This document shows positions 413-35,115 of a stretch of 35,280 bases of DNA, one piece after another (position 1 is the first letter of the stretch; each line of letters opens with the position of its first letter). Source of the DNA: a virus; IMG/VR virus record IMGVR_UViG_3300047548_000280, positions 1-35,280 of that record. One strand, given 5' to 3'. Below the pieces are notes generated by a model. It saw only the letters and a program-made list of their open reading frames with translations, had not been told where the DNA came from and searched no databases. A program made the translations under genes and the position numbers.

Positions 413-418
413 TTAATC

Positions 419-699
419 ATGTTGTAAGCAATTGGCTAGCAGTAAAAAACCTAGCTTTACACGTTGCCACAGGCGGCTGGATAAGTAAAGCCAAACTAGA
501 ATCAAGCCTACAACATCTAAGCATAGCGGTGAAAATAGGGGCTAAAATAGCCTGTGGATATTCCCGAAGATAATCATACTAGCTTAGAATGTCAAAGCCT
601 AAAGGCGTTAGCTATTGTGCTATGGTGTCCAGAAAGGTGTCGCACAGGTTTTTATACTTTCGCTGATTAGGCTTTGGCTAAACCCAAAGGGTTTTTTTT
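419..699 (+). ncRNA. Structured non-coding RNA, three helical domains plus terminator, family not recognised
   Basis: No reading frame fits: the ATG at 419 is followed by a stop two codons later. By hand I find three consecutive closed domains. Domain 1 is closed by 8 perfect pairs, 419-426 with 509-516, extended by 428-429/506-507. It contains a 7-bp perfect stem (454-460/485-491) that holds a 6-bp stem with a triloop (463-468/472-477). Domain 2 is closed by 517-522 plus 524-526 paired with 579-587, with A523 bulged, and contains GGCTA-AAA-TAGCC (540-552). Domain 3 is closed by 12 pairs, 591-602 with 667-678 including one G-U, and contains 616-620/642-646. A terminator follows at once. The promoter start and the terminator fit the helix ends almost to the base. 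The function is unknown. It could be a stand-alone RNA, or an early-operon leader acting by attenuation or antitermination. I recognise no B12, glutamine or other riboswitch box, no tmRNA and no RNase P core. Confidence 0.75.
681..699 (+). terminator. Rho-independent terminator ending the structured RNA
   Basis: A short stem AACCC-AAA-GGGTT (681-693) runs straight into further T residues, so that 692-699 is eight T in a row. It lies between the 385-412 promoter and the first protein gene at 743. Early-gene transcription from that promoter would therefore have to read through it. Confidence 0.75.
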
Positions 700-35040: not shown

Positions 35041-35115
35041 TGGTAGCAGGTGTTGGAATCGAACCAACTGTCTTTAGCTTATGAGGCTAACGAGATGCCA
35101 TTTCTCCAACCTGCA
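35041..35115 (-). tRNA. tRNA-Met (anticodon CAT), CCA encoded
   Basis: A 75-nt cloverleaf. Acceptor TGCAGGT/ACCTGCT, with only the outermost T-T unpaired; D stem GAGA/TCTC; anticodon stem TTAGC/GCTAA with loop CTCATAA; T stem GTTGG/CCAAC with loop TTCGATT; CCA encoded at the 3' end. The stem lacks the three G-C pairs of initiators, so it is elongator type. Ile-CAT (lysidine-modified) cannot be excluded. It sits about 13 nt after the predicted start of the first late promoter. Confidence 0.88.

Follow-up and report, generated by a model that had tools for sequence, protein, structure and literature searches.

A virus record of 35,280 bases from an uncultured virus, analysed at its whole length (the window), carries a structured RNA at positions 419–699, between an early promoter and the gene p743. 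Beyond reasonable doubt this RNA is real and conserved and constitutes a new structured family. Its best reading, drawn from complementary strands in the sequences and held at a probability of about one half, is a new family of cis-acting, switch-like phage leader. An earlier note on this DNA had described three closed helical domains ending in a terminator and had recognised no family. It had offered two readings, a stand-alone RNA acting on the host or the origin and a leader controlling the early genes through the terminator.

All features of the RNA region lie on the + strand. A sigma70-type promoter (385–412) consists of the −35 element TTGCAT (385–390) and the extended −10 element TGCTATTAT (404–412), and from this sequence the transcript is expected to start near 418–420. 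Promoters of this type were found directly 5′ of 20 of 28 homologous RNAs, compared with a shuffle mean of 1.0. The conserved core, domains 1 and 2, covers 414–598. Domain 1 (420–515; covarying helices 1–4) comprises P1 (420–426/509–515), P1b (436–439/496–499) and P2 (454–460/485–491), and covariation places the kiss hairpin P3 (463–466/474–477) inside it. Domain 2 (517–587; covarying helices 6 and 7) is closed by P4 (517–522/582–587), and in the alignment of homologues its UAG (524–526) and CUA (579–581) are invariant. Domain 3 (591–678) has a 12 bp closing helix (591–602/667–678). An intrinsic terminator, AAACCC-AAA-GGGUUU followed by a U tract (680–699, −5.2 kcal/mol), precedes the partner gene p743 (743–1132, 129 aa, phrog_3754). 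A terminator-like hairpin also lies directly 3′ of p743 (1140–1165) and may split this gene from the remaining early operon.

The positions of the three closed domains and the terminator agree with the earlier note, and its placement of the region as an early leader between promoter and terminator was borne out. Inside domain 1, the minimum free energy (MFE) fold is replaced by P1b, P2 and the kiss hairpin of the conserved structure. Treating the domains as separate units did not hold either: it had overlooked a pseudoknot coupling domains 1 and 2. It had also made no mention of the alternative pairings or of the gene that obligately accompanies the RNA.

The earlier note had proposed folding the region, searching Rfam, building a covariance model from related phages and testing for covariation. 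The MFE fold did contain the three domains, but its stability was only moderately unusual, with a z-score of −2.25 on the + strand (6 of 200 shuffles were equally good) and −2.77 on the − strand. The conserved fold in the window is only 1.4 kcal/mol above the energy minimum, with the kissing helix uncounted. Thermodynamic stability by itself is weak to moderate support for a structured RNA. A search of Rfam 15 with the window RNA and its homologues, at gathering and relaxed thresholds, returned no family and only chance-level scores, in line with the earlier reading. Folding energy and the Rfam result taken alone would leave the case open; the comparative evidence decides.

Homologues were found by several routes, and all sequences came from uncultured virus contigs. 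Among terminase relatives, L026 and L023 each had a diverged DNA homologue of the RNA directly 5′ of a p743 homologue. A search for p743 homologues led to several dozen loci on viral contigs, nearly all with a related RNA upstream. The covariance model R1 was built from marine-type groups only, with the structure written down from those sequences; the window and its near kin were excluded from training. R1 matched window positions 414–598 with 44.8 bits and an E-value of 2.8e-8, which is rough, as are all E-values of the home-made models R1 and R2. It also detected L106, L107, L102, L118, L129, L172 and L026. The model R2 was trained on 30 sequences, with the window among them and L066 and L023 left out. 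Both left-out members were recovered (38.1 and 80.9 bits, respectively); the window, as a training member, scored 108.1 bits. The proposed covariance model could be built, and the window was found by a model trained without it.

Neither R1 nor R2 found a second RNA copy in the window. A search of deposited phage genomes for close DNA relatives yielded nothing for L119; for the window, all matches were AT-rich and attributable to chance. No cultured phage bearing the RNA was found in the searches made, and no protein relatives were found as prophage or host copies. A pattern match in a Clostridia MAG (11.9 bits, E 0.22) was judged to be chance, and a match of R1/R2 in L021 looks like chance and by its position is inside a coding region. 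Upstream of p743 in L125–L128, L189–L191 and L185, inspection by eye showed very divergent sequences at the same position, with common motifs and complementary loops. They are probably further branches of the RNA family, but they were not counted as evidence because the models give no significant score.

Compensatory changes were abundant. In 21 aligned sequences and 41 pairs in seven helices, 92.2% of cells were paired, and double changes occurred in 37 of the 41 pairs. The covariation score was 0.769, compared with 0.223 after shuffling and at most 0.125 in slid-partner controls; these 21-sequence figures are inflated because the alignment was fitted to the model. The model matches outside the training set are free of this bias, and so is the kissing helix, which is absent from the model. 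This 7 bp helix joins the loop of domain 1 (CCACAGG, 467–473) to a loop on the inner hairpin of domain 2 (CCUGUGG, 551–557), as seen in the pairing counts and covariation. It was paired in 96% of cells, with 16 double-change cells and a covariation score of 0.325 versus 0.100.

Moreover, we applied a phylogeny-aware test in which substitutions were redistributed along the branches of a FastTree tree and scored by an APC-corrected G-test; the test is our own imitation of R-scape rather than that program. In 30 homologues, 14 column pairs were significant. Thirteen belonged to modelled helices, one to the kissing helix and none lay elsewhere, so the covariation that the earlier note had called for was present, with 14 of 14 significant pairs on the proposed structure. 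In the aligned homologues, G–U pairs were common on the + strand; on the opposite strand these would be A–C. Together with the promoter, this indicates that the selected molecule is the + strand RNA. The comparative evidence (the R1 match and the covariation) confirms the observation of a structured RNA.

The most informative fact on function is the linkage to p743. An RNA-only search, using a pattern derived from the RNA alone and R1, found 14 further RNAs. Each of the 14 was then seen to be followed by a p743 homologue, the identity to the window protein being only ~30% in some cases. For 25 terminase relatives the sequence extended 4.5 kb or more upstream of the terminase gene, and p743 was present in just three of them (L023, L026 and L066). 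These three are also the ones carrying the RNA; in the other relatives searched, R1 and R2 found no RNA. The RNA and the phrog_3754 gene were always on the same strand; the gene started ~130–210 nt after domain 2, and the early transcript began with the RNA. The gene order was constant: the packaging genes run leftward, and promoter, RNA, p743 and early genes follow rightward. More distant p743 homologues in large phages had no model match upstream and no room for the RNA.

The AlphaFold2 model of the p743 protein (pLDDT 89.7) predicts a C39/papain-like cysteine protease fold. Foldseek matched it to the peptidase domains of ComA and PCAT1 with a probability of 0.98–1.0, a TM-score of only 0.49–0.58 and a best E-value of 2.6e-3. 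Cys22, His100 and Asp111 are invariant in the p743 family. From the model and these residues, we infer that p743 encodes a small C39-like cysteine protease. PADLOC gave no convincing match for the partner protein. The Pfam family LCIB_C_CA (beta carbonic anhydrase-like) matched 4 of 16 members of the p743 family, with E-values down to 2e-5; this conflicts with the C39-like fold match.

RNA and protein have diverged to very different degrees. Domains 1–2 can be 90–97% identical between phages whose proteins share ~30–45%. Near-identical RNA cores before very different phrog_3754 proteins occur at L195, L196, L198, L204, L221, L243 and similar loci. The simplest reading of these sequences would be that the protein was exchanged repeatedly behind a near-constant RNA, always for a member of the same family. 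The discrepancy favours control of expression over tight binding of one protein, and expression control is what a near-constant RNA before very different proteins predicts.

How expression might be controlled is suggested by domain 3, which is less conserved than domains 1–2. The window has three strands, alpha (CAAAGCC, ~593–599), beta (GGCUUUGG, ~670–677) and gamma (CCAAAG), and relatives have equivalents. The alpha, beta and gamma strands are GAAUAACC, GGUUAUUC and GAAUAACU in one group, GAAUAAUC, GAUUAUUC and GAGUAAUU in another, and GAACAG, GUUGUUC and GAGCAAC in a third. Hence, at the sequence level the complementary trio recurs with differing letters between groups. Of 28 cases, an automated search recovered alpha and beta matching in full in 17, and the rest were judged by inspection. 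In the window, an alternative hairpin of beta and gamma (CUUUGG/CCAAAG, 672–689, −5.9 kcal/mol) competes with the domain 3 closing helix as well as with the terminator hairpin. The strands at the end of domain 3 abut the terminator in the window; in relatives they adjoin the gene's ribosome-binding site. A strand trio with a beta–gamma hairpin overlapping closing helix and terminator is the layout of an attenuator or a riboswitch-like platform.

In the proposed mechanism, host RNA polymerase would start at the early promoter (385–412) and make domains 1 and 2 first. These would fold into one compact body held by the kissing pseudoknot, and domain 3 would follow. Beta could then pair back with alpha, before domain 3, or forward with gamma, shortly before the gene. 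In the window, this choice would decide whether the terminator forms (680–699); in relatives, it would decide whether the first early gene has a long hairpin at its ribosome-binding site. In this way, the leader would control the C39-like protease gene and, in the window, probably also the early operon behind it. The trigger might be a ligand, a host factor or the phage's own protein. That both pairing states occur and alter expression we infer from the strands.

Some observations weigh against the leader reading. In the window, the closing helix can form alongside the terminator, and the window by itself is therefore not necessarily a switch. Most relatives have no U tract after the terminal hairpin, and the Shine–Dalgarno sequence lies beside the hairpin and is not clearly buried, which makes the output there uncertain. 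Riboswitches of a known family usually act on several different genes, whereas the RNA described here is tied to a single phage gene family and matches no known aptamer family. With riboswitches and attenuator leaders it has in common the 5′ leader position, the compact conserved core, a putative switching strand and a predicted output through a terminator or a ribosome-binding-site hairpin. Of the two readings offered earlier, a leader controlling the early genes through the terminator fits best.

A broader possibility, which we put forward tentatively, is that the RNA and the small C39-like protease together make up a single early cassette for host takeover. The same RNA chassis would serve many swapped, fast-evolving variants of the enzyme and would either sense the state of the infected cell or restrain the enzyme as an RNA–protein complex.

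Restraint of the encoded protein is also the core of an unlikely alternative, a system resembling type III toxin–antitoxin. The RNA would be released separately (in the window, it would end at the terminator) and bind the protein. Type III systems are laid out as promoter, folded RNA, terminator and protein gene (PMC5086642). In the window, as in ToxIN, CptIN and TenpIN, the elements come in this order, the RNA has a pseudoknot and a terminator separates it from the gene; the RNA is also obligately paired with one protein family. The terminator is a feature of the window (680–699); most relatives have a hairpin without a U tract in its place. Moreover, similarity in domain 3 follows protein similarity better (r 0.65) than similarity in domains 1–2 does (r 0.35). 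This hints at a match between domain 3 and protein type, but adjacency alone could produce the correlation. However, two features that define type III systems, an antitoxin of tandem RNA repeats and an endoribonuclease toxin, are lacking. The sequence of 419–699 has no tandem repeats but three different domains, and it is found in a phage early region. The partner resembles C39 peptidases, not endoribonucleases of the ToxN/AbiQ type. Near-identical RNAs precede proteins that are just 30–45% identical, and in the pair L210/L110 even domain 3 is 93% identical while the proteins share 44%. The p743 homologues of large phages, with no space for the RNA, also argue against this reading.

By analogy with phage HK022, the RNA could instead bind the transcribing RNA polymerase and make it ignore the terminators of the early operon. 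In HK022, an early promoter is closely followed by putL, and put RNAs are ~70 nt long, have two stem-loops and occur at two operons (PMC9378689). The RNA of the window likewise is compact and structured, opens a phage early transcript and has a terminator immediately behind it. But its core has ~185 nt and six helices plus a pseudoknot, it is present in a single copy in the window and it is tied to one gene. It is also missing from relatives that lack the phrog_3754 gene although these have early operons. A put-like role is thus improbable.

Similarly low is the probability that the RNA is a trans-acting factor directed at the host, or a primer or packaging RNA for an adjacent DnaA-box origin, with the gene nearby only by accident. 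A terminated product of ~280 nt is plausible, and DnaA boxes at 187–237 lie ~180 nt upstream. However, L013 and L014 keep such boxes and have no RNA, and several RNA carriers show no DnaA-box cluster in the neighbouring DNA examined. This distribution disfavours the action on the origin that the earlier note had suggested, and the origin-primer reading with it. A stand-alone RNA acting on the host, the other part of that suggestion, leaves the constant phrog_3754 gene downstream unexplained. A chance or DNA-level fold, such as inverted repeats of a replication origin, would suit the modest z-score on both strands but is hardly credible, being contradicted by the R1 match, the significant covariation, the + strand G–U pairs and the promoter placement.

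GOLLD and ROOL are ornate RNAs far larger than the RNA described here. The kissing loops they share with it lie, as modelled, within one molecule in the present case, which has no Rfam match. Kissing loops and a function not yet established are described for GOLLD and ROOL (PMC12286853).

The RNA adds a large, well-supported structured class, absent from Rfam, to the few known in lytic-type phages. This class is spread across very diverse uncultured phages and tied to one fast-diverging early protein family. Should the RNA prove to be a sensor, it would be among the rare RNAs that read the state of the cell as a phage infection begins.

Further features were noted around the window ends. The cluster at 187–237, 5′ of the early promoter, has four DnaA boxes (three of the TTATCCACA type and one TTATGCACA) and is probably an origin that uses host DnaA; L013 and L014 have a similar cluster. 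A tRNA-Met (CAU) gene on the − strand (35041–35115), at the start of the late operon, adjoins the origin region. The contig IMGVR_UViG_3300043399_000166 joins the window ends (35280/1) via 671 bases absent from the window.
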